Part shown: positions 23,231 through 44,719 of the stretch, in pieces
Numbering within the stretch: the stretch's first letter is position 1
Layout: each line of letters opens with the position of its first letter
DNA from: Candidatus Zixiibacteriota bacterium
GTDB lineage: Bacteria; Zixibacteria; MSB-5A5; WJJR01; JAJRUJ01
Assembly: GCA_020051695.1 (NCBI GenBank)
Contig: JAGVQM010000012.1
Coordinates: 70,361-134,360 of the forward strand
Direction of reading: 5' to 3'
Length of the DNA: 64,000 nucleotides
The notes under the pieces: model-generated
Databases searched by the model: none
What the model was told of the DNA's origin: nothing
What the model saw: only the letters and a program-made list of their open reading frames with translations
Position numbers and translations under genes: made by a program

Positions 23231-24991
23231 TTACAGCCCGGCCTTCACGCGCACCGTGATCACCGGTTCGAGGTCGCTGTCCTTGAGGGCTTTGGCGACG
23301 GCAAGACGGAACCCGCCGCCGAAATCCAGCGCCACGCCGATGTCGGATTTGAATTCATCAAACGACCAGAATTGAGCTGATGTCTGATTAAACCCGATCC
23401 GGCCAACATCACCAAAAAGCACCAGCGAGGCGTCGGTAATTGCATTTTCCCAGAAACGCACGGCGTACTCCATGGTGGCCAGAAACATCTCATCGCCGAA
23501 ATAGCGTTTGACCGGATAGCCGCGCAACGACGCCGGACCACCCAGGTAAAATAACTTGGGCGCAGACACATCGTTTTGCGCCATGCCGCCCTGCACCTGC
23601 AGGAGGACCCGATGCCGTTTGCCGAAATCATACCAGCCGGCGCCTTCGGCAAAAACGCGTGAGAAACTCCAGTCACCTTTAAACACACCGCCGCCAATTT
23701 CCCAAAAACCATCCAGCCGATAACCGGCCCCTGTTTTATAGCGGTCGCGCTCGGGTGCGTCGATTCGATAATCGAGGCGCACCAGCGAGATTTTGCGCTC
23801 GAAAACATGCTGATCGAGCAAATATGCGGCGGCACCTTCCAGAGCGCCGTAATTGTCGCGAAAATCTCGTCCGCTCCATAACAGACTCCATAAATCGGGA
23901 TGTGCCTCGCGCCAGCGGTAATCGTAATTTTCATAGGTCAGCATTGCAGTGTGCCGTTCCTTCGGCTGAAATGCCGCCCACACCAGCCCGCCCTGGCGGC
24001 CGTAGTAATCACGATAATCCTCATTGGCCAGCAACGCGACCAGCGTGTTCTCCAGAGCATACACGAACCGCTTGTCTTCCGAATCGGTCAGATGAAAATA
24101 TTCCCCGCCGACACGAATATCGCGCGAGGTGGATAACCGCTGCACAAAATACAGCCGGTATTGCTGGTAGTGCGAGGTGAATGCATAGCCGGTCCACAAA
24201 CCGATTTTTGGTGTCATCCAGGTATCCTGGAAATACACCTCCAGTCCCGGGCAGGCGCCGTCCACTTTGTCGTAGGTAAACGATGGTTTGAACCCGTATC
24301 GTTCACCCTCGAATTCCCATTGGCGGGATACGGCTACCGGGTGATACACATCTTTGACATCCGAATATATTCCACCGTAGACTTTGGCGGGCGCCTGCTG
24401 GTCAACGATGCCGCCCAAAGCCAGCACGCTGCCCCGCACCACTGCTCCGGGATGCAGATGCACCGGCCCACCAAGGTTAATGACATTTCCCCCGATTTCA
24501 CCCGCTGCATCAATCGTTCCCTGCCAGAGAAAAACCGAGCCAAAAATGAAATCACCACTTTGCAGCACGACTGCCTGCTGTCCGGCACAAAAATCATCAT
24601 TCACCGGTTGGCCGGCAGGCAAAGTATCCAACGCCACAAACCAGCCCCGCTCGGCCTGCCTGATCCGGCCGGCAACTGTTATGGCTGCCCACGGGAGCTG
24701 CCGCCCCGCAATCGTGACACCGATCGAGTCAAAGGCGATGCCGGCCTCGCCCGCCAAAGCCGCGAGCAACTCCGGACGGCCACCGGCGCCGGCCTGCCGT
24801 GCGGCAACCCGGTCCTCATGGTAAACGGAGACGATCAGCGAGTCGTCGATTTGTTCAAAGGTGATGACCGCGGCCCGGGCTGCTCCCGTACTGAAAAAAC
24901 CGGCAACTCCCAGGATCAGCAGGCAGACAATAACAGGGACATCCATCCTGATCAAACGACCAATGATCCGAGTCGGCAATATTGCTATCAC
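23231..24991 (-). CDS. D15/BamA-superfamily barrel with bactofilin-like segment
   Basis: The 586-residue product has an N-terminal hydrophobic export signal (about 17-40). A segment at about 145-210 has the repeating G-D-F-I-F-G-S-V-x(n)-G-G-N-V-I-N-L-G-G pattern of bactofilin/polymer-forming proteins. A C-terminal barrel (about 240-586) carries the D15 signature L-G-G-P-A-S-L-R-G-Y and ends in aromatic-rich strands. D15 proteins insert or secrete proteins through the outer membrane. The start is GTG 24991, five bases after GGGAGGT and overlapping the Nudix stop (GTGA). An ATG at 24946 is an alternative. Confidence 0.75.
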   Translation of the reverse strand: MIAILPTRIIGRLIRMDVPVIVCLLILGVAGFFSTGAARAAVITFEQIDDSLIVSVYHEDRVAARQAGAGGRPELLAALAGEAGIAFDSIGVTIAGRQLPWAAITVAGRIRQAERGWFVALDTLPAGQPVNDDFCAGQQAVVLQSGDFIFGSVFLWQGTIDAAGEIGGNVINLGGPVHLHPGAVVRGSVLALGGIVDQQAPAKVYGGIYSDVKDVYHPVAVSRQWEFEGERYGFKPSFTYDKVDGACPGLEVYFQDTWMTPKIGLWTGYAFTSHYQQYRLYFVQRLSTSRDIRVGGEYFHLTDSEDKRFVYALENTLVALLANEDYRDYYGRQGGLVWAAFQPKERHTAMLTYENYDYRWREAHPDLWSLLWSGRDFRDNYGALEGAAAYLLDQHVFERKISLVRLDYRIDAPERDRYKTGAGYRLDGFWEIGGGVFKGDWSFSRVFAEGAGWYDFGKRHRVLLQVQGGMAQNDVSAPKLFYLGGPASLRGYPVKRYFGDEMFLATMEYAVRFWENAITDASLVLFGDVGRIGFNQTSAQFWSFDEFKSDIGVALDFGGGFRLAVAKALKDSDLEPVITVRVKAGL

Positions 24992-31292: not shown

Positions 31293-31366
31293 TGGCTGGG
31301 GGACAGGGATTCGAACCCCGATACTACGGTCCAGAGCCGTATGTCCTGCCGTTGGACGATCCCCCA
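31293..31366 (-). tRNA. tRNA-Gln (anticodon CTG)
   Basis: The minus strand folds as a cloverleaf: acceptor TGGGGGA/TCCCCCA, D-stem GTCC/GGAC, anticodon stem TACGG/CCGTA around loop CTCTGGA with anticodon CTG, and T-arm CGGGG-TTCGAAT-CCCTG. Discriminator G and an encoded CCA (31293-31295) complete it. The initial U is usual in bacterial tRNA-Gln. Confidence 0.93.
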
Positions 31367-31449: not shown

Positions 31450-31761
31450 CTAACGCCGGGCGGTATTCTTTTTCGGCTTTGTGGCGGCAGCCGTCTTTTG
31501 TCCGGCCGGGCTTTTCCGGGCAGGCGTTTTTTTGGCCGGAGCGGCCTTTTTTTCCGGGGCTTTGGGGGCCGCGGTGGTCGGTTTTTCCGGCGGGGCTTCG
31601 CTTTTCTGCAGTGAGGCCAGCTCCTTTTTCTTTTTGGTCAGCTTCCGGTACAGCTTATCCATCCGGCCCCGGTCGAACAGCCCGCCGAACGGATTGGAAT
31701 TGATCTGCCGTTCCAGTTCTTCGATCTCTTTCACCAGTTTTTCGATTTTTGTATCTGCCAT
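31450..31761 (-). CDS. Small coiled-coil protein with histone H1-like tail
   Basis: The 103-residue product has a charged coiled-coil N-terminus (about 1-55). The C-terminus is a Lys/Ala/Pro-rich tail (about 58-103) with PAKK and AATKPKK repeats, resembling bacterial histone H1-like proteins. Such tails bind nucleic acid nonspecifically; DNA binding here is inference. AAAGGTGT precedes ATG 31761. Confidence 0.65.
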   Translation of the reverse strand: MADTKIEKLVKEIEELERQINSNPFGGLFDRGRMDKLYRKLTKKKKELASLQKSEAPPEKPTTAAPKAPEKKAAPAKKTPARKSPAGQKTAAATKPKKNTARR

Positions 31762-31910: not shown

Positions 31911-33341
31911 TCAGCGGATGAGCCGGTTTTCGCGCATATCCTGGTCCCATTGCGGGTCGTACTTTTCACCCCGGGCGGTCGAGTGCACCAGACTGAAATT
32001 GCCGAACCCGTCCTCATCCTCAAAAAGAAAATATACGTCGCCCTGATCGCCAAGCTGATAATAAAACCATTGTTGCAGCGGCTTGCGTTCAAGAGACGAG
32101 GGATAACGTTCTATTTCGTTGGGTTCACCATATTTAATATGGATCCGGCCCATGTCGGTTTTCCAGCCATCCGTGCGATCATCGACTTTTGTCGAGTATT
32201 CGCTGTTGGCATGGTTAAAGCGGTGATAGTATTCCTCCTTGAATTCGTTAAACGGTGTCTCCGGTGTCGTGTCGAACCGTTTCCAAAACCAGATCAGGAA
32301 ATTGCGCTTGCCGCACATGTTCAACCCGTCATAGGTTTTTAATTCCTCGCGCTTGGCCAGGTAGAGGATAACGTTGCGCTGCATTTCGGCTTCCTCAAGC
32401 GTCAGCGAATCACACTCCTCCCCCTGCAGGATAACGGTGAAGGGTTTGGTGATCACAACCCGCGAGGCCGACACCGAATCAAATACAGTCACTTCCAACC
32501 GGTATTCACCCTCCGGCAAATCCCGCGTTTCGAGACTGGAGGCCAGCACTGAAGAAGTGCCCGGCTTTTTATAGGCCCGCTTGCCGAAATCCTGGACAGT
32601 CATGTTTTCCGGATTGAGGAACCGGAAGCCGAGTTCATAGACGTTTTCTCCGCCGGGTTCATAGGCCAGATTGTAGATCTCACCGTAAAAGTACAGCCGC
32701 GGGCGGTTCCGCGACAGGGCGGCCCGTGGGTCGGGGTAGACCTTGCGCATGTTGCGCACCAGGACATCACCCTGTTCGAAATCTGTCCGGTCTTCGATGA
32801 TATCGATATCGTACGCCAGCTTCAGATCGGAGATTGCCAGACCGGCCGAGGAAAAATCACGGACGGTAATTGGCATAACCAACTCGCCGAAATTCCGCTG
32901 GTCCGTCGGGGAATACATGTCCAACACGATAATTTTGGCGTGGTAGATGCCGGGAGGCAATTCTATCGGCAGCGCATAAAAAACCTTAAAATCCGGCAGG
33001 GCGGCCTCGGCAGTGTCGCGAACAGCACAACCGAAGTACGCCGGGATGGTATCGGTCACGGGTTCATCACGGACATTAAGCAGCTGGACCCACAGCCCGA
33101 TTTCTGCGAGCAGACCCTCGCTGCCGTTCGGCGAAAAAGTGAATTGATGCCGCTGCAGGGCAAACAGGAACTCTACTTCCGTAATCGACGGATCATCAGG
33201 CACGCGGAAGCTGGCGTAGTCCGCATAAACGGTCAGGTTCCCCGTTTCCGTCTCAGCCGCCCACGCGGCCGCGACGCAGGAAACCAACACCACACAAATG
33301 AGCGCAACCGGGGATAACACCCGATATCCCTTACCTGTCAT
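31911..33341 (-). CDS. GWxTD domain-containing exported protein, second of the operon
   Basis: The 476-residue product has a signal peptide (about 1-28). A beta-rich N-terminal part (about 30-300) includes LNVRDEPVTDTIP and paired PGIYHAKIIVLD/EGEYRLEVTVFD strands. The GWxTD domain follows (about 305-476), with GWKTD at 392-396, then MGRIHIKYGEPNEIERYP and W-F-Y-Y. GWxTD proteins occur in several FCB-type lineages and have no established function. GAGGAGG precedes the ATG. It lies 41 bases after a paralogue and downstream of ABC export genes, suggesting a shared envelope role. Confidence 0.85.
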   Translation of the reverse strand: MTGKGYRVLSPVALICVVLVSCVAAAWAAETETGNLTVYADYASFRVPDDPSITEVEFLFALQRHQFTFSPNGSEGLLAEIGLWVQLLNVRDEPVTDTIPAYFGCAVRDTAEAALPDFKVFYALPIELPPGIYHAKIIVLDMYSPTDQRNFGELVMPITVRDFSSAGLAISDLKLAYDIDIIEDRTDFEQGDVLVRNMRKVYPDPRAALSRNRPRLYFYGEIYNLAYEPGGENVYELGFRFLNPENMTVQDFGKRAYKKPGTSSVLASSLETRDLPEGEYRLEVTVFDSVSASRVVITKPFTVILQGEECDSLTLEEAEMQRNVILYLAKREELKTYDGLNMCGKRNFLIWFWKRFDTTPETPFNEFKEEYYHRFNHANSEYSTKVDDRTDGWKTDMGRIHIKYGEPNEIERYPSSLERKPLQQWFYYQLGDQGDVYFLFEDEDGFGNFSLVHSTARGEKYDPQWDQDMRENRLIR

Positions 33342-33382
33342 CCAAGCAACCTCCTCATGACCACCATCCGGCCGTTCTCTGC

Positions 33383-34711
33383 TCAGTGCCGCCCGCCGTC
33401 ATACGGGGGCTGCAATTGATAATCATCATTTCCTTTGGCGTCGACAAACACAAATTTCCGGCCCTGGGTATAATAATACCAGATCTCATAGGGTTTCTGC
33501 CCCAATTCAAACGGATAGCGTTCGACCTGGTCGGGCTCGCCATATTTGATATATACCATCCCAAAGTCGGTCCGCCAGCCCCGGCGGTAGGGATTGGTAT
33601 AGTGGGCATCGGCAAAACGAATTCGCCGATAATACTCATTTTTCCATTCATTGTCCGGCGTCTCGGGGGTCGGGTCCTTAGACTTCCAGAAGGCCTCCAG
33701 CATCTCTTCCCGGTCTTCCTGCTCGGCGTCGCGCAGCGCCTTAAGCTCCTTGGGCGCGGCAATATGCACCAACTGATCGACGACCAGCTGCCAGTCATGC
33801 CCCATCATGGAACGCAATGACCATTCCACGCGGTACATGGTGACCAGATCATCGACCAACGCCCGTGAGCCGTCACTGAGCTTCAAGGTGAGCGTGATCT
33901 CCCCCGGCTCGAATTCGGCGATGGGGATGTTCAAAACCACCGGATTAATGCCGCTCGCCTGCGGCGCGAACCGCACGGAATCGATCCGGGTGTGGTTCTG
34001 ATACCGATTGAAAGAGACGGCCTCGAGGACCAGTTCCGTGGTCGTATCCCCCGGGGTATACACTTCCAGAAAGATCGAAGCCGATTCTTCCTTACCTCCA
34101 TATGCCCGTGTCACTTGCGGGAGCACTGCCAGCCCGAACTTAACGAATTTTTCCGGGATGGGGGGGGTGGCGGAGGCCCGGCTGAAAAGCGGTGTCGACA
34201 TCGCATACCCGCCCTCGGGGAACTCCGGGACAATAACGTCAAGGAGCCGCGCGAAAGAACGGTTGGAGATACGGTCACTCAGGATCAATTCCAGCTTGTA
34301 TTCACCAGGCGGCGCAGTCATCCGCAACTGGTTGAGCAAATAACTCTCCTTGCTGCGGGTTTCCTGATAGGAAGGAACGGTATAGGATTCGGCGTGCGAC
34401 GCCGAGGCCACCTGCGGGTCGTCTTTATGGCGCAGGATCATGTCGATTTCATAGCTGGCAACAAATTTGTCATCGCGCTGGACATATGTGAGATTGATGT
34501 TGAGGATCTTGTAGGACACCTCGATGACACCCTCACCCGGTGATCCCCCGCGAAACACGGCCGCATCCGCCCAGAAAACCGGGTCGCCGGGCCGGGGCAT
34601 TTCCGAAAACTCAGTCTGCGCCCTCGCGCCGGCCGCCAGCGCAAACCCGAATGCGGCGATGGTCAGGAACCCGGAATATCGGTGACGTGGCCCCATACAC
34701 CTTTCTTTCAT
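33383..34711 (-). CDS. GWxTD domain-containing exported protein, first of the operon
   Basis: The 442-residue product has a signal peptide (about 1-32), a beta-rich domain with PPGEYKLELILSDR and PGEITLTLKLSDGSRAL, and a C-terminal GWxTD domain. GWRTD is at 378-382, then FGMVYIKYGEPDQVERYPFE and W-Y-Y-Y. It shares this plan with the next gene, so the two are tandem paralogues. ATG 34711 (after AAGGGG) or ATG 34696 (after AAAGG) could be the start. It sits 142 bases after the second MacB-type permease. Confidence 0.85.
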   Translation of the reverse strand: MKERCMGPRHRYSGFLTIAAFGFALAAGARAQTEFSEMPRPGDPVFWADAAVFRGGSPGEGVIEVSYKILNINLTYVQRDDKFVASYEIDMILRHKDDPQVASASHAESYTVPSYQETRSKESYLLNQLRMTAPPGEYKLELILSDRISNRSFARLLDVIVPEFPEGGYAMSTPLFSRASATPPIPEKFVKFGLAVLPQVTRAYGGKEESASIFLEVYTPGDTTTELVLEAVSFNRYQNHTRIDSVRFAPQASGINPVVLNIPIAEFEPGEITLTLKLSDGSRALVDDLVTMYRVEWSLRSMMGHDWQLVVDQLVHIAAPKELKALRDAEQEDREEMLEAFWKSKDPTPETPDNEWKNEYYRRIRFADAHYTNPYRRGWRTDFGMVYIKYGEPDQVERYPFELGQKPYEIWYYYTQGRKFVFVDAKGNDDYQLQPPYDGGRH

Positions 34712-34853
34712 CCTGCACCCCTTGGCTTTACCACACGCTTCTCAGCAAATTTCAAAAACAGATCTGATCGCCCCCATAAATGTACAGCGGCCGTATCCTC
34801 CCGACCACCATAATTTATACGTCGGAGGGGCCGAGTTATTCCTTTGCCGCCGG

Positions 34854-36101
34854 TTATTCGTAGCGAAGGGAGACAATCGGGTCGACTTTGGCCGCCCGAT
34901 ATGCCGGGTAGATGCCGAAAATCAGCCCCACGGAGACCGCGACAGTGAAGCCGATAATGACCCATGGAATTGAAACTCCGGCGGGGAGCCAGTCCATGGC
35001 CTTGATGAAAAAGGCCAGCGCCAGACCGAAAACAATCCCCACTATTCCGCCGACACCCGAAAGGGCCATCGCCTCAATTAAAAATTGCCAGACAATATTG
35101 GCGCGGCGGGCGCCGATGGCTTTGCGGACGCCGATTTCGCGGGTTCGTTCGGTCACCGAGACCAGCATGATGTTCATCACGCCCACCCCGCCGACCATCA
35201 AGCCGATCGAGGAAATCACCGTCATGGCAACATAGATCATCCCGGTGATCTGCCGGTAGATCTCCATCAGGGAATCCTGGGTAAACACGGCAAAGTCATT
35301 TTCGTCGTCATACTTCAAACCCCGTTCCCGGCGCATGACTTCAGTGATCTGGTCGACAGCCAGCTCGATTTTGTCCGCTGATGCGGCCGCGCAGGCCAGC
35401 CAGAGTTCCTTTTCCCAGGGGTGCAGCTTGGCAAATGTGCCGTAGGGCAGCAGGATATAATTATCCTGGGACGTTCCCAGGATCGCCTCGCGTTTTTCGG
35501 TCACGCCGATGACTGTGAAACGGTGGTTGTTGACCAGAATGGACTTGCCCAGCGGGTCGAGACTGGGGAAAAGCGTCTCGGCGATATCCGGGCCGAGCAC
35601 ACACACCATCCGGCGAAAGTGATGATCCAGCTCGCTGATAAAACGCCCGTGTCGGCAACTGATATTGTTGACTGCCTGGTAATCAGGCAATACTCCCGCC
35701 AAATCGGGGCGCCGGGCCTCGTTCCCCTTATATTTGGCCGTATTGCCGCCGGGCAAATGGTAATGGTTTTCGGGGGATACGGCTCTCACGGCAGAACAGT
35801 TTTCCTTGATCGCCATGGCGTGCTCATACGTGATCGGCTTGCGGTTGCGCTCGGCCGACGAGCGGCGACCGAGCTGGATTCCCGGCTTAAACCGCGAGAC
35901 ATACACGGCGTTTGAACCCAGCGACTCGATCTGGTGGGCCATCGAATTATTCAGTCCGGTAATCAGGGACACCATACCGATCACCGAACTGACGCCGATC
36001 ATCACACCCAAAACGGTCAGGAACGACCGCAGTTTATTGGCGCGGATGGCATCGAAGGCCATAATCAACGCTTCTCTGATTTCGAATAAATTCAGTGCCA
36101 T
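34854..36101 (-). CDS. MacB-type ABC transporter permease, second copy
   Basis: The 415-residue product has an N-terminal helix after IRANKLRSFLTVLGVMIGV, a large periplasmic MacB core domain (about 50-270), and three C-terminal helices with VSVTERTREIGVRKAIGARR. It ends YPAYRAAKVDPIVSLRYE. This mechanotransmitter topology serves export of peptides, lipids or antibiotics from the periplasm. The ATPase is a separate gene. Its different core domain from the neighbouring permease suggests a heterodimer. Confidence 0.93.
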   Translation of the reverse strand: MALNLFEIREALIMAFDAIRANKLRSFLTVLGVMIGVSSVIGMVSLITGLNNSMAHQIESLGSNAVYVSRFKPGIQLGRRSSAERNRKPITYEHAMAIKENCSAVRAVSPENHYHLPGGNTAKYKGNEARRPDLAGVLPDYQAVNNISCRHGRFISELDHHFRRMVCVLGPDIAETLFPSLDPLGKSILVNNHRFTVIGVTEKREAILGTSQDNYILLPYGTFAKLHPWEKELWLACAAASADKIELAVDQITEVMRRERGLKYDDENDFAVFTQDSLMEIYRQITGMIYVAMTVISSIGLMVGGVGVMNIMLVSVTERTREIGVRKAIGARRANIVWQFLIEAMALSGVGGIVGIVFGLALAFFIKAMDWLPAGVSIPWVIIGFTVAVSVGLIFGIYPAYRAAKVDPIVSLRYE

Positions 36102-36132
36102 CGCAAGGATACTTCCGTTCAGGCCATCGGAC

Positions 36133-37353
36133 CTATTCGCGGCGCAGGGCCTCGATCGGGTCCAACCGCGCCGCTTTCACCGCCGGGTAAACACCGAAAA
36201 ACGTGCCGACCACCGTGGAAACCCCCAGCCCCAGAAAAACCGACCACAGGGCCACCCCGGCCGGGACCCCGATCTGGGCCGTGAGGATGATCCCGATTAT
36301 GAAACCCAGCGCGACACCGATCCCGCCGCCGACCAAAGACAGGGTGACCGCTTCGGCAAGAAACTGAAACATGATATTCTTCCGCCGGGCGCCCACCGCC
36401 TTACGGATCCCGACTTCGCGCGTGCGCTCGGTGACCGACACCAGCATAATGTTCATGATCACAATCCCGCCGACCACCAGCGAAATCGAGGAGATGCCGA
36501 CCATCACCATGGCCGCGCCGCTGGAAAAAGTCTCCCACATCGACATAAAGTCCGCGGCCGTCATGATCCCAAAGTTGTCTTCTTCGTGATACTTCACCCC
36601 GCGGCGCGCCCGCAGCACCAGGCGCACCTGGTCCTGGGTCTCATCCATGATTTCAAATGAAGCGGCCTTGACAAATAAATCGAGTGACCGGCGGCTGCCG
36701 AACTGCTTTTCGAACGTTGTTAATGGAATAAAAACATAATTATCATTGCTCTGGCCGAGGGTCGAACCCTCCCGAGTGCCGTGGCCGATGATGGTATACT
36801 GGCGCCCGTCGATTTTGATTTCTTTGCCGACCGGGTCCAGGCCCGGGAACAGGTTATCGACGACATCGTAGCCGATGAAGGCCACGTTGCGGCGATGTAG
36901 ATAATCGTCGTCGGTGAGAAAGTGCCCCCGTTCGATTTCCTGCTTGACAATATCAACAAAATTGGCCGTGGCCCCGACGATGTACACATCGTCCAGATAC
37001 TGGCTGCCCCGTTTGATCGTGCGGGTTGTGAACATCCGCCCGCCGACTTCGGCGCAATCCGGGCAGTTGTCGGCCACCGCTTTCATATCATCGATGGTGA
37101 TTTTTTTGCGCTTGAAGACGTTCCACCACTGTTCCTCGGAGGTCACCATTCCGTACTGGTCGATAATGAATGTTGTCGCGCCCAGGCCGGAGATCTGGTT
37201 GGCAACATAGGCGTTCATGCCGTTGATCATCGAGACGATGGCGATGATCGTCGTCACCCCGATAATCACGCCGATCAGGGTCAGCACCGAACGCAGCTTA
37301 TTGACCCATAAGGCGCCCAGGGCAATCCGGACACTTTCCAGGAACGCTCGCAT
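36133..37353 (-). CDS. MacB-type ABC transporter permease, first copy
   Basis: The 406-residue product has the same layout as the following permease: VNKLRSVLTLIGVIIGVTT in the first helix, a periplasmic core domain (about 45-265), and three C-terminal helices with TERTREVGIRKAVGARR. It ends YPAVKAARLDPIEALRRE. A CPDC motif near residues 88-91 in the periplasmic domain is unusual and could form a disulfide. It follows the ATPase gene by 66 bases. Confidence 0.93.
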   Translation of the reverse strand: MRAFLESVRIALGALWVNKLRSVLTLIGVIIGVTTIIAIVSMINGMNAYVANQISGLGATTFIIDQYGMVTSEEQWWNVFKRKKITIDDMKAVADNCPDCAEVGGRMFTTRTIKRGSQYLDDVYIVGATANFVDIVKQEIERGHFLTDDDYLHRRNVAFIGYDVVDNLFPGLDPVGKEIKIDGRQYTIIGHGTREGSTLGQSNDNYVFIPLTTFEKQFGSRRSLDLFVKAASFEIMDETQDQVRLVLRARRGVKYHEEDNFGIMTAADFMSMWETFSSGAAMVMVGISSISLVVGGIVIMNIMLVSVTERTREVGIRKAVGARRKNIMFQFLAEAVTLSLVGGGIGVALGFIIGIILTAQIGVPAGVALWSVFLGLGVSTVVGTFFGVYPAVKAARLDPIEALRRE

Positions 37354-37419
37354 TTGTTTTCTCCGCGATTTTCAGTCGCTGCGGGACCGGCCCTTCCCGC
37401 AGACGGCAGGACACGCCAC

Positions 37420-38103
37420 CTAGTGCCGGACCTGCTCTTCCTTCTCGATCGCGCCGTCCCGGATATGGAGGATGCGATCGGCATAGGAGGCCACGTCCAG
37501 CTCATGGGTCACGATAATAATCGTATTGCCGGCATCGTGCAGCCGGCCGAACAAGCCCATAATTTCCTCGCCGGTTTTGGTGTCCAGGTTACCGGTCGGT
37601 TCATCGGCCAGGATCAGCGACGGGTTGTTGACCAGCGCCCGGGCCACGGCCACGCGCTGCCGCTGGCCGCCGGACAGTTCGTTCGGCCGGTGGGTCATCC
37701 GGTCACCCAGATCGACCATTTCCAGCGCGCGCCGGGCTTTTTCGATGCGGGTCGTCGAGTCGCTGCCGTTATAAATCAGCGGCAGTTCCACATTGTGCAG
37801 CGCCGTCGCCCGCGGCAGCAGGTTGAACGTCTGGAACACAAACCCGATTTCCTTGTTCCGGATCCGCGCCAGCTCATTATCGTTCATCTCCGAGACCAGA
37901 CGCCCGTTCAGCTCATAATAACCGCGCGAAGGCGTGTCCAGACAACCGATCAGGTTCATCAGGGTCGATTTGCCGGACCCCGACGGCCCCATGATGGCCA
38001 CGTACTCGCCCGCTTCGACGTTGACATCCACACCCCGCAGCGCATGGATGGTCTCGGCCCCCATTTCATATGATTTCCACAAATCCCTGGTTTTGATTAA
38101 CAC
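37420..38103 (-). CDS. ABC transporter ATP-binding protein, LolD/MacB type
   Basis: The 227-residue ATPase has Walker [10 protein letters not shown] (39-47), Q-loop FQTFNLLP, signature [15 protein letters not shown], Walker [13 protein letters not shown] and H-loop VTHE. The MAL-type inserts and the L-N-L-I-G-C-L-D start place it with LolD and MacB ATPases that drive the mechanotransmission permeases encoded next. I prefer GTG 38103, which follows AGGATGG and gives the usual N-terminus; GTG 38133 adds ten residues. Confidence 0.93.
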
Positions 38104-38136
38104 GATTGTACCATCCTGTCCATGCCGCAGCACATG

Positions 38137-39468
38137 CTACTTTTCCTCGGACGTCGGGGATTTTTTGACTTCGACGCGGTCGCCATGGTTCAACTCTCTG
38201 AGGGTTTTGAAACTGCCGGTGACAATCTGGTCCCCCTTGTCGACACCGGAGACGATATGAATGTTCTGCTGATCGGCGATACCGGTCACGACCTCCGCGA
38301 AAAACGCCTTGCCGTCCCGGATGATGAACACGCCCTGGAGTTCGCGCTTGTCCTTCTCATCCTCATCGACCGTATCGGCGTCCGCCTCGTTTGTCGAATC
38401 GGTCTCCGACGCCACCGCGCCGTCGGTTTTTCCGCCGCCTTCCGCGGCTTGTTGTTGTTCCCGGATATCTTTTTCATCCCGCAGGACGACCGCGCCGATC
38501 GGCACCTTGGCCACATGCTCCGCCCTGGCGGTCGTGATATCACAGGTGGCCGACATCCCGGGCCGGATGTCCGGGACCGTCTCCTGCAACAGGATCGTGA
38601 CAATAAAATTGATCACCTGGTCCGAAGTCCCGTACCCCGAAAACTGCGCGCTGTTGCCGACTTCAGTGACCACGCCGCGGAAAGTGGTATCCGGTAGGGC
38701 ATCCAATTCGACTTTTACCTCCTGACCGACCGCGACACTGGCGATATCGGTTTCGTCGACCTCGACTTCGGCCTCAATTTCGGCGAGGTCGGAAACCGTC
38801 ATGATCACCGTCCCCGCGTTATTCATCGTCCCAATCATCACGATTTCGCCGATCTCGGCATTTAATGCGGTGATGATCCCGTCGATGGGCGAAACGATGG
38901 TCGTATAATCGAGCTGATTCCGCGCCTCGCGCAGGGAGGCCTTGGCGCGGTCGACCGCATGCAGCGCCGCATTATGAGTGGCCTTCTGCACATCAAATTG
39001 CGTGCGGACTGCATCATAGGCCTCATCCGAAATCAATTTGCCTTTATGGAGTTTTTCGGCGCGTTCAAACGTCAGTCGGGCCTCTTCCATCTGGGCCCGC
39101 GATAACTCGGCCTGGGCTTCCTGTGAAGCCAGGGAGGCGCGGTATTGGTCGGCTGCCGCCTGATACCGGTCGGGGTCGAGCTGGACCAGCAGCTGCCCGG
39201 CGCTCACCGGCTGGCCTTCTTTCACCGGCAAATCGACGATCTTCGCCGAAACGTTGGCGGAAATTTTCACCTCGGTCCTGGCCTGGATTTTTCCGGAGGC
39301 GGTGACAATGGACGTGATATCACCCAGCTTGACCTCCCCGGCAGTGACTTGCCGGATCGACTCATCGGATTTGGTCAGGTTGACTACAACAATGACGATC
39401 AACACCGCCGCCGCCGCGCCGATAATAAACCATTTCTTTTTGGATTTCTTCTTGTTGTTGATATTCAT
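38137..39468 (-). CDS. Periplasmic adaptor (HlyD/MacA-type membrane fusion protein)
   Basis: The 443-residue product has an N-terminal membrane anchor (about 13-32) and a lipoyl/barrel-sandwich half (SGKIQARTEVKISANVSAKI). An alpha-hairpin (about 100-195) is followed by the second lipoyl half ending SPIDGIITALNAEIG and the beta-barrel and membrane-proximal domains. An acidic insert of about 30 residues (SETDSTNEADADTVDEDEKD) splits the membrane-proximal domain. It should bridge the ABC permeases to the TolC-type channel. ATG 39468 is favoured over GTG 39474. Confidence 0.92.
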   Translation of the reverse strand: MNINNKKKSKKKWFIIGAAAAVLIVIVVVNLTKSDESIRQVTAGEVKLGDITSIVTASGKIQARTEVKISANVSAKIVDLPVKEGQPVSAGQLLVQLDPDRYQAAADQYRASLASQEAQAELSRAQMEEARLTFERAEKLHKGKLISDEAYDAVRTQFDVQKATHNAALHAVDRAKASLREARNQLDYTTIVSPIDGIITALNAEIGEIVMIGTMNNAGTVIMTVSDLAEIEAEVEVDETDIASVAVGQEVKVELDALPDTTFRGVVTEVGNSAQFSGYGTSDQVINFIVTILLQETVPDIRPGMSATCDITTARAEHVAKVPIGAVVLRDEKDIREQQQAAEGGGKTDGAVASETDSTNEADADTVDEDEKDKRELQGVFIIRDGKAFFAEVVTGIADQQNIHIVSGVDKGDQIVTGSFKTLRELNHGDRVEVKKSPTSEEK

Positions 39469-39599
39469 GGGCACCTCAACTTACCGGCAGGTATCTCGCT
39501 GGTCGACGGGCACTGTGCCGCGGACCCTCGTTCCGCGCGACCGGTGATTACCGCGTTCATCAGTATACGACGGGCAACCTAATCGTTTCTCCGTTCCGT

Positions 39600-40910
39600 T
39601 TATCGCCGCCGGCCCATCGCCCGGTCCAAAGCCGAGACGGCAAGGTTAAAATCAAATTTGGCACTGACAAAGCTGTTACGGGCATCGGCCAGGTTTTTTT
39701 CCGCGTCCAGCAGGTCCAGGACGGTCGCCGCGCCGAGGTTATAGCGTTCCTGCGCGATTTGCAGGTCCTCCTCCGCCGAACGCAGCGATTCCTCGTATAA
39801 ATACAAATTGGCCCGCGCATTATTGATGCCCAGCAGGGCGGTCTGGATCTCCAGTCCGACGCTGTTGACGGTCGATTCCAGCGAGACGACAGCCAGTTTA
39901 TGTGCGCCCGTGGCCCGGGCATGGTTGGTTTTCAGCGAAAATCCATCGAGGAAGGGGATACTCCAGGAGAAGGACAAGCCAAAATACCAGTTCGCATTGT
40001 CCCCGTCGAAACTCCCCCAGTTGGAGACTGAATCGACCGACCAGGAACGCGAGGCATTCCAGGAAACCGACGGCAGATACGCCGAACGCGCATATAACCG
40101 CTGATAGCGGGTTGCTTCCAGTTCGGCCTGCGCCGAAAGGATACGGGGATGGTTCGTCTCAGCATAGCCCATGGCGCCGGTAAAATCATCGGCGACCACC
40201 AGGGTATCGACACGATCGTCCAAATCCAGGTCCGCAGTGGCCCGGCGGTTCATCACATTGTTCAACTGCGCCAAAGATACCGCACTGTTTTTCTTGGCCG
40301 CTTCCAGTGACGCTTTGTTCGACAGCAACTGCACCTTGGCTTTCAGCAGCTCGGACTGATTGGCTGAGCCCAGGTCGAACCGCGCCTGAACCAGTTCGAG
40401 GTTGTGTTCGGCCGCGCCGACCGCCTGCCCAGCCACTTCCAGAAGTCCCCGGTATTTCAGCGCGCTGAAATAGTAGTTCTTAACCAGGTCGATTGTTTCC
40501 AGTTCCGACTGCGTCAGGTTGTGTTCCCCGGCTTTGCGCAGGTTCAGATAATACTTGAGATTGAAATATTTGCCGCCCCACTGAAAGAGATCCTGCCGCA
40601 CGTTGATCGATTTGGAATATGTCCGGTTGATCGGCGAATACACCTGATATTGCGAGACGCCGCCCTGTTCGTAATACGAATAACCCGCCGACAGCGAAAA
40701 CTGCGGCAGCCAGGAGCCGTAGGCGCTCCAGACGTTCTGCCGCGCCATGTCTAGTGAGTAACGCGAGGAGGCCAGCGAGACATTGCGGTCCAGCGCGATG
40801 TTGATACATTCATCCAGACTCAGTTTCTCCGCTTGGACGTTCCCGGAAAACAACAACACACACACTGCCAGACAACATACACCCCATCGATGTGCACGCA
40901 CGACGTTCAT
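39600..40910 (-). CDS. TolC-family outer-membrane efflux protein
   Basis: The 436-residue product has a signal peptide (about 1-28, ending GNVQA). Two OEP repeats follow, each opening with the typical helix: L-S-L-D-E-C-I-N-I-A-L-D-R-N (about 31-44) and the AYAETNHPRILSAQAELEATR segment split near 235. Length and helix/strand alternation fit a trimeric channel-tunnel. ATG 40910 follows AGGGG. It lies 131 bases before the adaptor gene. Confidence 0.92.
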   Translation of the reverse strand: MNVVRAHRWGVCCLAVCVLLFSGNVQAEKLSLDECINIALDRNVSLASSRYSLDMARQNVWSAYGSWLPQFSLSAGYSYYEQGGVSQYQVYSPINRTYSKSINVRQDLFQWGGKYFNLKYYLNLRKAGEHNLTQSELETIDLVKNYYFSALKYRGLLEVAGQAVGAAEHNLELVQARFDLGSANQSELLKAKVQLLSNKASLEAAKKNSAVSLAQLNNVMNRRATADLDLDDRVDTLVVADDFTGAMGYAETNHPRILSAQAELEATRYQRLYARSAYLPSVSWNASRSWSVDSVSNWGSFDGDNANWYFGLSFSWSIPFLDGFSLKTNHARATGAHKLAVVSLESTVNSVGLEIQTALLGINNARANLYLYEESLRSAEEDLQIAQERYNLGAATVLDLLDAEKNLADARNSFVSAKFDFNLAVSALDRAMGRRR

Positions 40911-40938
40911 ACGAATCCCCTTTAAGCTGTGATACACA

Positions 40939-41685
40939 TTACATTCCGCCGAAATTGAGACCCATGGAGATCAGGCCGGCTTGAATCAACGCCCAGACAA
41001 ACCAGGCCGCGCCGACGGTCCACGCCGATTTGGCAACGGATGATTTGGTCAAGATGGACATGCCCAGGATCACCAGACCCAATTGCCACAGGCCAAACAG
41101 ATCGAATTTCCCCAGTAACGCCCCGATAAATGTGTCCGCCTGCTCCGGAGAAACCAGCAGCGCCAGCGAGGTGTGTACCTTTGTCGAGCCTTTCGACAGG
41201 ATCAAGGGAAGTTTGATGATTGTCTCCGGGATGGCAATCAAAAATGAAAGCGCAAACATGTTCAACACTAACTTGAAACTGGTCTGGCCCCCCAGAATGA
41301 TGTTGCCCAGAAACAAAAGAATAGCGGCCCCGATAACCAGCACGACGGTTACAAAGACCGGAGTCAGCAATTGCCAGATCGGGTTTTTCATTCGCTCGCG
41401 GGCGCTGTCCGTAATCTCCTGTTTGCGGTCCTCCGGGAGATCATAACTGTCAAGCTGTTTCTCCAACTGGGCCATCTGGTCTTTAACGACGATCGGTTTG
41501 GTGAATTGGTAACTCCCCAGCCCAAAGAGAGAAACGATTAAAACGACAACCAGCCATTCCCAGTTTTTGCGTACGGATGAAAACGCCTTGCGGGGATCAA
41601 AAAATACTGCGATAAACCGGGCGAGCATCCCGACTTGCGGTGTTGCTTGCACTTCGGCTTCCGGCGTGACGATCTGATCATCCAT
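40939..41685 (-). CDS. Yip1 domain membrane protein
   Basis: The 248-residue protein has a cytoplasmic N-terminus with M-L-A-R-F-I-A-V-F-F-D-P-R-K-A-F, the usual lead-in of bacterial Yip1/YIF1 domain proteins. Five membrane helices follow. ATG 41685 follows GGGAG. The gene heads the efflux operon, 28 bases before the TolC-like gene, so it may assist assembly or regulation of the exporter; its function in bacteria is unknown. Confidence 0.8.
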   Translation of the reverse strand: MDDQIVTPEAEVQATPQVGMLARFIAVFFDPRKAFSSVRKNWEWLVVVLIVSLFGLGSYQFTKPIVVKDQMAQLEKQLDSYDLPEDRKQEITDSARERMKNPIWQLLTPVFVTVVLVIGAAILLFLGNIILGGQTSFKLVLNMFALSFLIAIPETIIKLPLILSKGSTKVHTSLALLVSPEQADTFIGALLGKFDLFGLWQLGLVILGMSILTKSSVAKSAWTVGAAWFVWALIQAGLISMGLNFGGM

Positions 41686-41944
41686 CCCGTGTTCTCCCTT
41701 ACAGGCACTCGTCCCAAAAGACGGATACCCTGGCAAAATGTTTCATTTTTCCCATTGCTTGTGACATCCGCTGATCACCTGTCGAGCTTACCCGAAACTC
41801 TATAAACTATTCAAATTCCGTTCGAAAATCAAACGCGATTTCAGCTAAACCGTCGAACCCGATTGGGGTTCTCGCACCGATCTTCTTGTCTCACGTGGAG
41901 TTATTGCCTAGAAACACGGAAAGTTCGGAGAACTCAGAAAAACA

Positions 41945-42223: not shown

Positions 42224-44719
42224 CTAATTCCCGTCACGCAGCACCGTTACGCCGCGACGTTCCAATTCCGGGATTTCCACGTTGCGCGTCGCCCATTCAT
42301 ATAACACGTAGGTATTGCCGCGAATATCCAGTGTATCGCCGGCGCCCCAGCCCGGGTTCTCCAATAATATCGTCAGATTCTGGAGCCGGTTATTATTTAG
42401 CAGAAGTGTCTTGATGCCCCGGAGTTTCTCCAAACCATTCATATCACGAATCTGATTGTTGCCCAGATTCAGGTAGGACAGGTTTCTCAGATCCGACAGC
42501 GTTCTGGCGTTAGAGATATTGCAATACTGCACGTTCAGTGAATCCAGGGACATCAAACCGGCCAGCCCGGCAATATTGGACAGTTGCGAATTGCTCGACA
42601 GGTCCAGGACCTGGAGTTGCTTTAACTGCGCCAGCGGCGAGATATCGCTGATGGAATTGCCGTTCAGCCGCAATATTCGCAGGTCGATCAGGTGACTCAG
42701 TGGTACAAGATTCTTGATCAGGCCGTTTGATTGCAGGTCCAGGGCTTGTACGTCAAAAAGATATTCCAGTCCATTCAGCGCGATAATCCCACGGCCAATG
42801 GCCAGCAATTCAGTGTGGCCGGCCAGGTCGGCCCCGGTCAATGCCCCGGTCGGCTTGCCGGCCAGGGTCCGGAGCGCTGCCTGCAGATTGTTATCCGGGA
42901 CCGAGACTTCCAACTCGGAGAGGTTATTGACCTGGATGACATTCGAGATTGTCGAATAATTATAATCCTGGTCAAATACTCTCAGACCCAGGTATGTCGT
43001 TTCCGCCAAATCATAGGGCAGGGCGACGAATTCCTCGGCCGAGCCGTTTGCCGCAGGCGTCGGCTCCCCGATGAACTGGCCGGCCTCGTCCCAATTCTCA
43101 TCGGTAATGGGGACGGCAGCGTAACGAAGATCATACCAGGTAGCGAATCCCTCATTGTAATCGTTGCCGGTGGCAGTCCAACTCAGCCGAATGGAATTGC
43201 CCCAGTATTCGTTGATGGTTAAATCGGTCACAGCCGTCGGCTCGATCCAGTCACCGTAACTGAGTAACGGTCTGCGGCTTACAGGCAGTGGAAAGGAGTT
43301 TTGTTCAACGGCGCTTCCGCTTACAACGTGAATATGCAATTGCCCGTCCTGCTTGCGTAAATTGAGCAGTGCTGAAGCTGGCAAGCCGAAATATAACCAC
43401 GAACCGAGAGAATCGGCTTGAGCGCTCGCGGAAAACGGGTTTTCATGGATGGTCCGGAAATCAACAAGGACATCACGAAAATCAACAGCGAAGGCGATTG
43501 ATGTAATCGATTCGTTCGCGTCCGGAAAATTAAACAACAACACCTCCGCTTCCGCCGGCCAGTTCAGTGCTATGCCACGGTCCCGCAGGTAATCAAAACG
43601 CACAGCCAGATTCGCTTGTGTGCTGACCCGAGTCAGTGCCATCCGGTACACTCCGGTGACCTCCCTGGCCAGAGTCAGGGAATCCTTAGAGTACCCCTCG
43701 GGGAAATCAAGGTACGTCAGTCCGCCAAACGCGGGAGCATAATTTAATTGTACGTAGAAATTCTGCATGACTTCTTCGCGGTCTTGCACGCGCCCCGCGC
43801 CACTGGACGGAGCATCGCTGGACAGCCCCGCGCCGTAGGTGAACAACCTGAGAAATGCGGGCGGCAGCCAGCGGCGTGAACCGATCCGGACCCGCGGCGG
43901 GATCTCCTGCCCTGCCTCAATATCATAGCCAACCGCCCGACCGAGGGCCAAAAACGCGGAGGTGAATTGTTCACCAGTGGCGGACAGGACGACACGATCG
44001 TCATCCTCGATAGCGCGGACGGCATTAATTAAGTTCGCCACCGCACTTTCCACGACCGCATCACCGGCCGAGGCATTCTCATAATGTGTTTTGAAAGTCT
44101 GAAAAACGTCGAGGACGTCCGCCCGATCGGCGGCCCCCAGCGATAGTTCAATGTCCTGACCGAGGTCGCCGCCTAAATCGCCGACAACCTGATTGATGAT
44201 TGCGCCGATCGCCTCCCGGGCAGTCTGGGTTTTCCAAACAACGGCCCAGCGGCTCTGCGTCAGCGCCCCGATTGTCGCCCGATTTTGCCCGGTCTCCAGT
44301 GACGGGTTCTCAAACACCCAGGACTGGCCGTCCGTCCTGCCGGTAAGCAGGGAGGCCTCCAATTGCCCGGCCGGCAGCATCGCGTCAGCGTAGGTGACCA
44401 CCACCCAGATCGTGTCGATAATCTGCCCGGTGGACAGCTTGACCTCATAAGCGGGAGAGACGAATCCGTACCCCTCCGGCAGTGCGGGAACGGCGTCAGT
44501 CTGGCTGATCTGGATTTCCGCATCCTCGGAGATGGCTTCCGGCGGGACCGTCACGGTCACAAGATTACCCAAAGACGCAGTGCCTCCGGTATCTTTCGAA
44601 ATGAGGCTGGCCGAAGGCCTGGTTGGCGGGTCGTCATCGCCGCATCCGAAAACCAGTGATAATAAAAAAACTCCGGCCAGTAAACCGCCACATAACCTTA
44701 CCATCGCGCGCTTATTCAT
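42224..44719 (-). CDS. Lipoprotein with leucine-rich repeats
   Basis: The 831-residue product has lipobox VFGC (Cys26). A ZU5-like segment (about 45-120) contains GNLVTVTVPPEAI. An unrecognised middle part follows (about 120-500), then a fibronectin type III-like domain (about 510-610). The C-terminal array of about seven 22-residue leucine-rich repeats (about 620-800) includes LRILRLNGNSISDISPLAQL and LSYLNLGNNQIRDMNGLEKL, of the internalin/SDS22 type. It probably faces the surface or periplasm and binds protein or carbohydrate. GAGG precedes the ATG. Confidence 0.85.
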   Translation of the reverse strand: MNKRAMVRLCGGLLAGVFLLSLVFGCGDDDPPTRPSASLISKDTGGTASLGNLVTVTVPPEAISEDAEIQISQTDAVPALPEGYGFVSPAYEVKLSTGQIIDTIWVVVTYADAMLPAGQLEASLLTGRTDGQSWVFENPSLETGQNRATIGALTQSRWAVVWKTQTAREAIGAIINQVVGDLGGDLGQDIELSLGAADRADVLDVFQTFKTHYENASAGDAVVESAVANLINAVRAIEDDDRVVLSATGEQFTSAFLALGRAVGYDIEAGQEIPPRVRIGSRRWLPPAFLRLFTYGAGLSSDAPSSGAGRVQDREEVMQNFYVQLNYAPAFGGLTYLDFPEGYSKDSLTLAREVTGVYRMALTRVSTQANLAVRFDYLRDRGIALNWPAEAEVLLFNFPDANESITSIAFAVDFRDVLVDFRTIHENPFSASAQADSLGSWLYFGLPASALLNLRKQDGQLHIHVVSGSAVEQNSFPLPVSRRPLLSYGDWIEPTAVTDLTINEYWGNSIRLSWTATGNDYNEGFATWYDLRYAAVPITDENWDEAGQFIGEPTPAANGSAEEFVALPYDLAETTYLGLRVFDQDYNYSTISNVIQVNNLSELEVSVPDNNLQAALRTLAGKPTGALTGADLAGHTELLAIGRGIIALNGLEYLFDVQALDLQSNGLIKNLVPLSHLIDLRILRLNGNSISDISPLAQLKQLQVLDLSSNSQLSNIAGLAGLMSLDSLNVQYCNISNARTLSDLRNLSYLNLGNNQIRDMNGLEKLRGIKTLLLNNNRLQNLTILLENPGWGAGDTLDIRGNTYVLYEWATRNVEIPELERRGVTVLRDGN

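Follow-up and report, generated by a model that had tools for sequence, protein, structure and literature searches.

The 64,000-nucleotide stretch of Candidatus Zixiibacteriota DNA analysed here (the window) carries, on the minus strand between positions 31911 and 41736, eight consecutive open reading frames (ORFs) that together resemble a MacB-class ATP-binding cassette (ABC) exporter with two GWxTD-family proteins attached. In transcription order they encode a Yip1-family protein, a TolC-like channel, a MacA-like adaptor, a separate ATPase, permease A, permease B, and the paralogues GWxTD-1 and GWxTD-2. This gene content and order are conserved across the phylum Zixibacteria, where the GWxTD proteins form two lineages and the permeases likewise. 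Since the unit is conserved across the phylum, a functional tie between the GWxTD pair and the exporter is supported. Our preferred reading goes a step further, and we regard it as evenly balanced between right and wrong: the eight genes would make up a trans-envelope exporter operon in which the GWxTD proteins serve as two dedicated periplasmic accessory subunits.

A gene unit conserved across Zixibacteria

A first reading of the window, made without database searches (the sequence-only reading), had proposed eight minus-strand genes running from Yip1 to two GWxTD paralogues. All eight ORFs are confirmed in place and each matches Pfam above the curated cut-off (Table 1). Searched at E 0.001, the 3.53 Mb genome from which the window comes contains exactly two GWxTD matches, both of them in this operon, and 8 MacB_PCD matches; with numbers this small, chance would not be expected to place GWxTD genes and permeases side by side. 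Two further transporter loci with MacA that were examined in the same genome (L284, L285) gave no Yip1 or GWxTD match.

GWxTD matches are found in 126 of 132 Zixibacteria genomes, usually two in each; 14 control genomes have none. To describe their surroundings one locus was taken per genus where a match was listed, giving 77 loci (genera g33, g60 and g85 are not included), and the genes at each locus are ORFs scored by profiles built up from the eight proteins of the window operon. A MacB-type permease lies on the same strand no more than 600 bases upstream of GWxTD-1 in 66 of 71 testable loci, the remaining six of the 77 having less than 600 bases of upstream sequence. The whole exporter, comprising Yip1, TolC, MacA, ATPase and at least two permeases, is present in 48/57 loci, a count that leaves out the 20 of 77 that show less than 9 kb upstream and have no Yip1 match. 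One locus scored as incomplete (L041) does have Yip1, past the 9.5-kb limit because four permeases intervene. GWxTD-2 directly follows GWxTD-1 in 73 of 74 loci, three more having less than 300 bases downstream. A hand count gives linkage in 18 of the 19 family codes represented, f5 being the exception. Three or four permease genes, with extra copies of A or B, are seen in L041, L050, L055, L058, L062, L067 and L082.

Of the six genomes with no GWxTD match, G013 turns out to carry a GWxTD-1 gene, interrupted by a contig end; in G072 a contig end interrupts the gene for permease B, and G001 has the exporter (see below). The other three (G126, G029, G050) are also without a high-scoring permease B, a co-absence that is not counted as evidence because one contig missing from a draft bin would remove both.

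Table 1. The eight genes of the putative exporter operon and the longest gap between them, in window coordinates
Feature	Position	Strand	Evidence
Yip1-family membrane protein, YknW-like	40939..41736	-	PF04893 45 bits (cut-off 28.6)
TolC-like outer-membrane channel	39600..40937	-	PF02321 OEP 218.7 bits, two stretches; TIGR01844 168.2 bits, below cut-off 225
MacA/HlyD-type periplasmic adaptor	38137..39474	-	PF16576, PF13437, PF13533 above cut-off; HlyD_D23 76 bits, HlyD_3 71 bits; TIGR01730 168.4 bits, above cut-off 94.9
Separate MacB/LolD-type ATPase	37420..38133	-	PF00005 (ABC_tran) 118.5 bits; best NCBIfam scores MacB 258 and LolD 238 bits, both under equivalog cut-offs
Permease A (MacB_PCD + FtsX)	36133..37353	-	PF12704 135.9 bits, PF02687 74 bits
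Permease B (MacB_PCD + FtsX)	34854..36101	-	PF12704 140.6 bits, PF02687 75.7 bits
Gap between permease B and GWxTD-1	34712..34853	-	142 bases
GWxTD-1	33383..34711	-	PF20094 61.7 bits (cut-off 26.9); TIGR04514 112.6 bits (cut-off 28)
GWxTD-2	31911..33341	-	PF20094 49.5 bits; TIGR04514 89.1 bits (same cut-offs)

The genes are closely spaced and we infer that they are transcribed as one operon. Measured from ORF starts, the intergenic gaps are 1, 125, 3, 66, 31, 142 and 41 bases in transcription order. The sequence-only reading gave a range of 28 to 142 bases and an operon end at 41685: its maximum stands, its minimum fits an inner ATG of the TolC-like gene where ORF starts give a minimum of 1, and its end agrees with an ATG inside the Yip1 gene, which we consider the likelier start although the ORF reaches 41736. 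It also singled out the 142-base gap as the place where a promoter and terminator might part the GWxTD genes from the permeases. A consensus scan, which is a weak test, finds neither a sigma-70-like nor a terminator-like site in that gap, and the folding energy of the gap's RNA is unremarkable (z -0.40). Two weak terminator-like sites lie on the operon strand within the last 140 bases of the permease B gene; over the scanned region 20 such sites are observed, compared with 11.9 (standard deviation 3.8) in shuffles.

As to the surroundings of the operon, a tRNA gene (31296-31366, Rfam 56.8 bits) lies just downstream on the same strand, with a short Lys/Ala-rich ORF (31450-31761, no Pfam match) in between. 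Some 7 kb further downstream from the GWxTD pair, 23231-24991 encodes on the same strand an Omp85-superfamily protein (44 bits) that has no POTRA match at E 1e-6; the intervening genes include one for a SpoIIE-type phosphatase and one for a HATPase-type protein. On the upstream side of the operon, 42224-44719 encodes an 831-residue protein with leucine-rich repeats and an N-terminus that appears lipobox-like by eye. A membrane H+-pyrophosphatase gene stands directly upstream of the operon in two relatives (L033:13503-15581 and L052:13178-15163), and similar-sized genes occupy that place in a number of others. PADLOC matched only the permeases and the ATPase, which we read as generic.

Two lineages of GWxTD proteins and of permeases

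Both GWxTD proteins are clear members of the family, with the motif in the form GWRTD in GWxTD-1 and GWKTD in GWxTD-2. They share 28% identity over 334 residues, and profiles of the two align over 395 columns. A quick tree built from 172 GWxTD proteins places the paralogues on opposite sides of a starred split; the Zixibacterial GWxTD-1 sequences make up one side of a starred branch with support 99, and the GWxTD-2 sequences are grouped with support 73. A more careful tree was built from 49 hand-picked rows of the 172. In it a starred branch (99/96) holds all 18 of the GWxTD-1 proteins encoded beside rimO in other phyla (see below), together with five others, and leaves out every exporter-linked GWxTD-1. 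A single clade of all the exporter-linked GWxTD-1 proteins is neither shown nor rejected (p-AU, from the approximately unbiased test, 0.169). Permeases A and B, 38% identical in the window, represent two cleanly separated lineages in Zixibacteria (65 versus 68 sequences, support 1.0).

The window's GWxTD-1 and GWxTD-2 have 442 and 476 residues, corresponding to some 45-50 kDa as estimated from length. GWxTD-1 begins with a segment that by eye resembles a Sec signal, continues with two predicted β-sandwich domains and ends with the GWxTD domain, and GWxTD-2 is laid out alike. An N-terminal hydrophobic segment is seen in 73 of 77 GWxTD-1 and 70 of 74 GWxTD-2 proteins, which would be in keeping with a periplasmic location. 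The sequence-only reading had offered three roles for the pair: cargo, periplasmic accessories or lipoprotein-like clients of the exporter. The last is not supported for the family, since a simple pattern finds a lipobox-like site in only 1/77 GWxTD-1 and 1/74 GWxTD-2 proteins, the latter being, by pattern alone, the window's own GWxTD-2; as argued below, the accessory role fits best and cargo less well. Both paralogues diverge at the pace of the TolC component: over 45 common loci the median identity to the window's protein is 30.5% for GWxTD-1, 30.2% for GWxTD-2 and 30.1% for TolC.

AlphaFold2 models of the two proteins have a predicted local distance difference test score (pLDDT) of 78.4 for GWxTD-1, whose GWxTD part is badly modelled, and 86.4 for GWxTD-2. 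Among the best 50 of 1,500 and the best 50 of 1,474 Foldseek rows, RbmA, transglutaminase-type and other β-sandwich proteins come first. A second examination of GWxTD-2 spans residues 33-305, where the β-sandwiches lie, and the C-terminal domain is barely covered by the fold searches. Because β-sandwiches are common folds, these matches are given no functional weight. Compared with the sequences of solved structures, the GWxTD-1 profile produced four matches, all with E of at least 0.35, and the GWxTD-2 profile 23, of which the best (E 0.0023) is cadherin-3 at profile positions 226-292. By eye the GWxTD core looks BamE-like, and the predicted elements following the motif in GWxTD-2, a helix and then strands, are compatible with this. 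Direct comparison by hhalign with BamE (PF04355) gave a probability of 0.3%, against maxima of 2.5% for 60 column shuffles and 0.63% for 37 control pieces, with a BamE set of 13 mostly weak matches and a GWxTD domain not folded alone. We make no claim of a BamE-like fold.

Weighing the role of the GWxTD pair

In the preferred reading, one operon would encode a MacB-class (type VII) ABC exporter with a YknWXYZ-like layout and a TolC channel in addition. Hydrolysis of ATP by the separate ATPase would move the periplasmic domains of the permeases, A and B probably pairing as a heterodimer as in LolCE, and a substrate would thereby be driven out of the periplasm by way of the MacA-like adaptor and then the TolC-like channel. 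The Yip1/YknW-like protein would help assembly. GWxTD-1 and GWxTD-2, exported by Sec, would act in the periplasm as dedicated subunits in contact with the exporter, most likely binding or handing over the substrate, or bracing adaptor and channel. Their TolC-like divergence, N-terminal hydrophobic segments and multi-domain models suggest a structural or substrate-handling subunit rather than cargo. Also in favour of the reading are the linkage throughout the phylum, the lack of Yip1 and GWxTD matches at L284 and L285, the place of exporter-linked GWxTD-1 apart from the rimO-linked branch, with a single exporter-linked clade not rejected, the YknW precedent for Yip1, and the comparable gene order at L130, L145, L144, L189 and L174.

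Several observations weigh against this, both within the phylum and outside it. Linkage is not obligatory in Zixibacteria: in five of the 71 testable loci (L037, L042, L044, L080, L103) the pair has no adjacent exporter, and in genome G001 the exporter is present with no GWxTD match in the following 2.4 kb. In favour of the reading, on the other hand, all five genomes with an unlinked locus keep the exporter elsewhere, and in G079 a GWxTD-1-like gene still stands beside it, the genome's other locus having a GWxTD-1 fragment. GWxTD-2 is closely followed by a further ABC ATPase gene in 12 of the 77 loci, so that more than one transporter may make use of the pair. These ATPases score 177-262, compared with about 400 for the exporter's own, and in the two loci examined (L035, L095) an ABC-2 permease comes next.

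Outside Zixibacteria a GWxTD match occurs in 57 of 254 genomes sampled. A first set of 40 loci, drawn from 32 of these 57 genomes and in several cases trimmed by contig ends, includes three with an exporter beside GWxTD (L130, L144, L145), that of L144 lacking an ATPase match. In a second set of 80 named loci, 16 are Zixibacterial or taken as such, and among the 64 others there are two such cases, L177, to judge by its length the same contig as L144, and L189. The association with exporters that the sequence-only reading expected in related genomes is therefore borne out for Zixibacteria and fails at most of the loci sampled from other phyla; given this rarity, the GWxTD family needs no such exporter. 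Moreover, at L144, L145 and L189 the exporter is accompanied by a single GWxTD gene. To the permease tree L130, L144, L145 and L174 contribute eight sequences, every one of them on the A side, so the A/B split is established for Zixibacteria only and, taken with the single-GWxTD loci, the pattern of two permeases with two GWxTD proteins is not general. L174 itself is named as Zixibacteria (SM23_81) and has the exporter, its GWxTD proteins not grouping with those of the phylum in the trees. A further candidate, the Neomarinimicrobia locus L180, has weak MacA- and permease-like matches and an ATPase match downstream of GWxTD-1, and was not counted as this exporter.

The neighbours of GWxTD genes at loci without an exporter bear on the foremost alternative. 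At 62 such named loci there are 112 adjacent ORFs, of which 102 share the strand of the GWxTD gene, and 93 of these 102 were scanned (48/52 upstream, 45/50 downstream). Upstream of GWxTD-1, 26 of 48 encode a protein with UPF0004, radical SAM and TRAM domains, which we take to be rimO. Downstream of GWxTD, 10 of 45 are POTRA/Omp85 genes, and all ten cases belong to one 11-row tree group (support 90, not starred) of Ignavibacteria, Chlorobi and Bacteroidetes bins with one further bin. A link to PorZ in Neomarinimicrobia was considered and is not used: PorZ_N appears in four of 48 upstream genes and, of three such genes taken singly, that of L217 passes the cut-off, that of L178 falls below it and that of L183 shows no match. 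In three loci of other phyla GWxTD-2 comes directly after an SMC gene (L153:5421-8939, L158:5059-8595, L154:11065-14631), and L159 and L228 have genes at that place known only to be of like length.

The GWxTD proteins might thus be co-located with the exporter and independent of it, performing some general function in the envelope, perhaps in Omp85-type assembly or at the cell surface, and sharing the operon only for joint expression. The frequency of rimO and, in one group, of Omp85 genes beside GWxTD in other phyla favours such independence, as does the separation of pair and exporter in four Zixibacterial genomes, with a partial split in a fifth. It sits less easily with linkage in every family code but f5, with the separate tree position of exporter-linked GWxTD-1, and with the recurrence of a comparable gene order at loci beyond the phylum sample (L130, L145, L144, L189, L174). 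We consider independence a real contender, and clearly less probable than the accessory role.

A bolder form of the accessory reading would make the pair an obligate part of a new eight-component class of Zixibacterial exporter, the two GWxTD proteins pairing with permeases A and B and loading or gating a substrate that the outer envelope requires. This we think improbable, and somewhat more so than at first, because the A/B split is not shared by the exporter loci outside the phylum, of which three have a single GWxTD gene. If it were true, the GWxTD family would represent general periplasmic partners of envelope-building machines, among them this exporter, ABC-2 exporters and Omp85.

Least probable, by a small step, is that the GWxTD proteins are cargo, entering the periplasm by Sec and then being exported by the pump to the cell surface: their genes come last in the operon, hydrophobic N-termini are near-universal, MacB-class pumps are thought to work from the extracytoplasmic side and one exports the 10-kDa dispersin (PMC5985334), but the same account suggests that dispersin may mark the upper size limit of folded substrates, against folded multi-domain models of 442 and 476 residues here. 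Most genomes have a single conserved copy of either protein, which together with TolC-like divergence is unlike fast-changing cargo, and in four genomes the pair lies away from the pump.

The GWxTD proteins are widespread (126/132 Zixibacteria and 57/254 other genomes), yet a literature search, with most subscription journals outside its reach, returned no relevant paper naming GWxTD and no function for the family. A largely invariant, phylum-wide operon now gives these proteins named candidate partners. If the accessory reading is right, two periplasmic subunits and a YknW-like subunit would be added to the tripartite MacB class, and if the exporter builds the envelope, it would open a way to study the cell biology of a phylum that is uncultured.

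Comparison with known exporters

Among the closest known systems, one related in layout is YknWXYZ of Bacillus, the SDP-toxin exporter, where a Yip1-family protein, a MacA-like adaptor, a separate ATPase and a MacB-like permease are co-encoded. There YknW is the Yip1-family protein and modulates assembly of the complex (PMC4887032). With that precedent, Yip1 is not an odd passenger in the window operon. YknWXYZ has one permease, whereas the window has two and adds a channel in the outer membrane and the GWxTD pair. The window's Yip1 scores 57.3 bits with the YknW equivalog NF052650 and does not reach its cut-off of 110; among relatives L130 comes nearest (105.6), followed by L101 (75.9) and L145 (64.2).

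With MacAB-TolC the operon shares a MacA-like adaptor, MacB_PCD/FtsX permeases, a MacB-type ATPase and a TolC-like channel. It differs in having the ATPase as an ORF of its own, two permease lineages, and Yip1 and GWxTD in addition, and the window's proteins (258, 223 and 185 bits) miss the MacB equivalog cut-off of 966. The contrast drawn by the sequence-only reading between separate, heteromeric permeases and a fused MacB stands as regards the unfused ATPase and the two lineages, while the heteromer itself is presumptive and split ATPases are no novelty.

LolCDE, like the window operon, combines two different MacB-class permeases with a single separate ATPase. Scores with the LolCE model (41.9 and 48.0 bits, cut-off 362.45) and with LolD (238.2 against 307.75) fall short, and LolCDE functions without adaptor and channel (PMC5985334). 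Both split ATPases and heteromeric permeases are thus already represented, in YknYZ and LolCDE (PMC4887032, PMC5985334). Tripartite MacB pumps and YknW are each equally known already; what appears to be new, as far as our searches reach, is the fixed combination of a tripartite MacB-class exporter with two GWxTD proteins.

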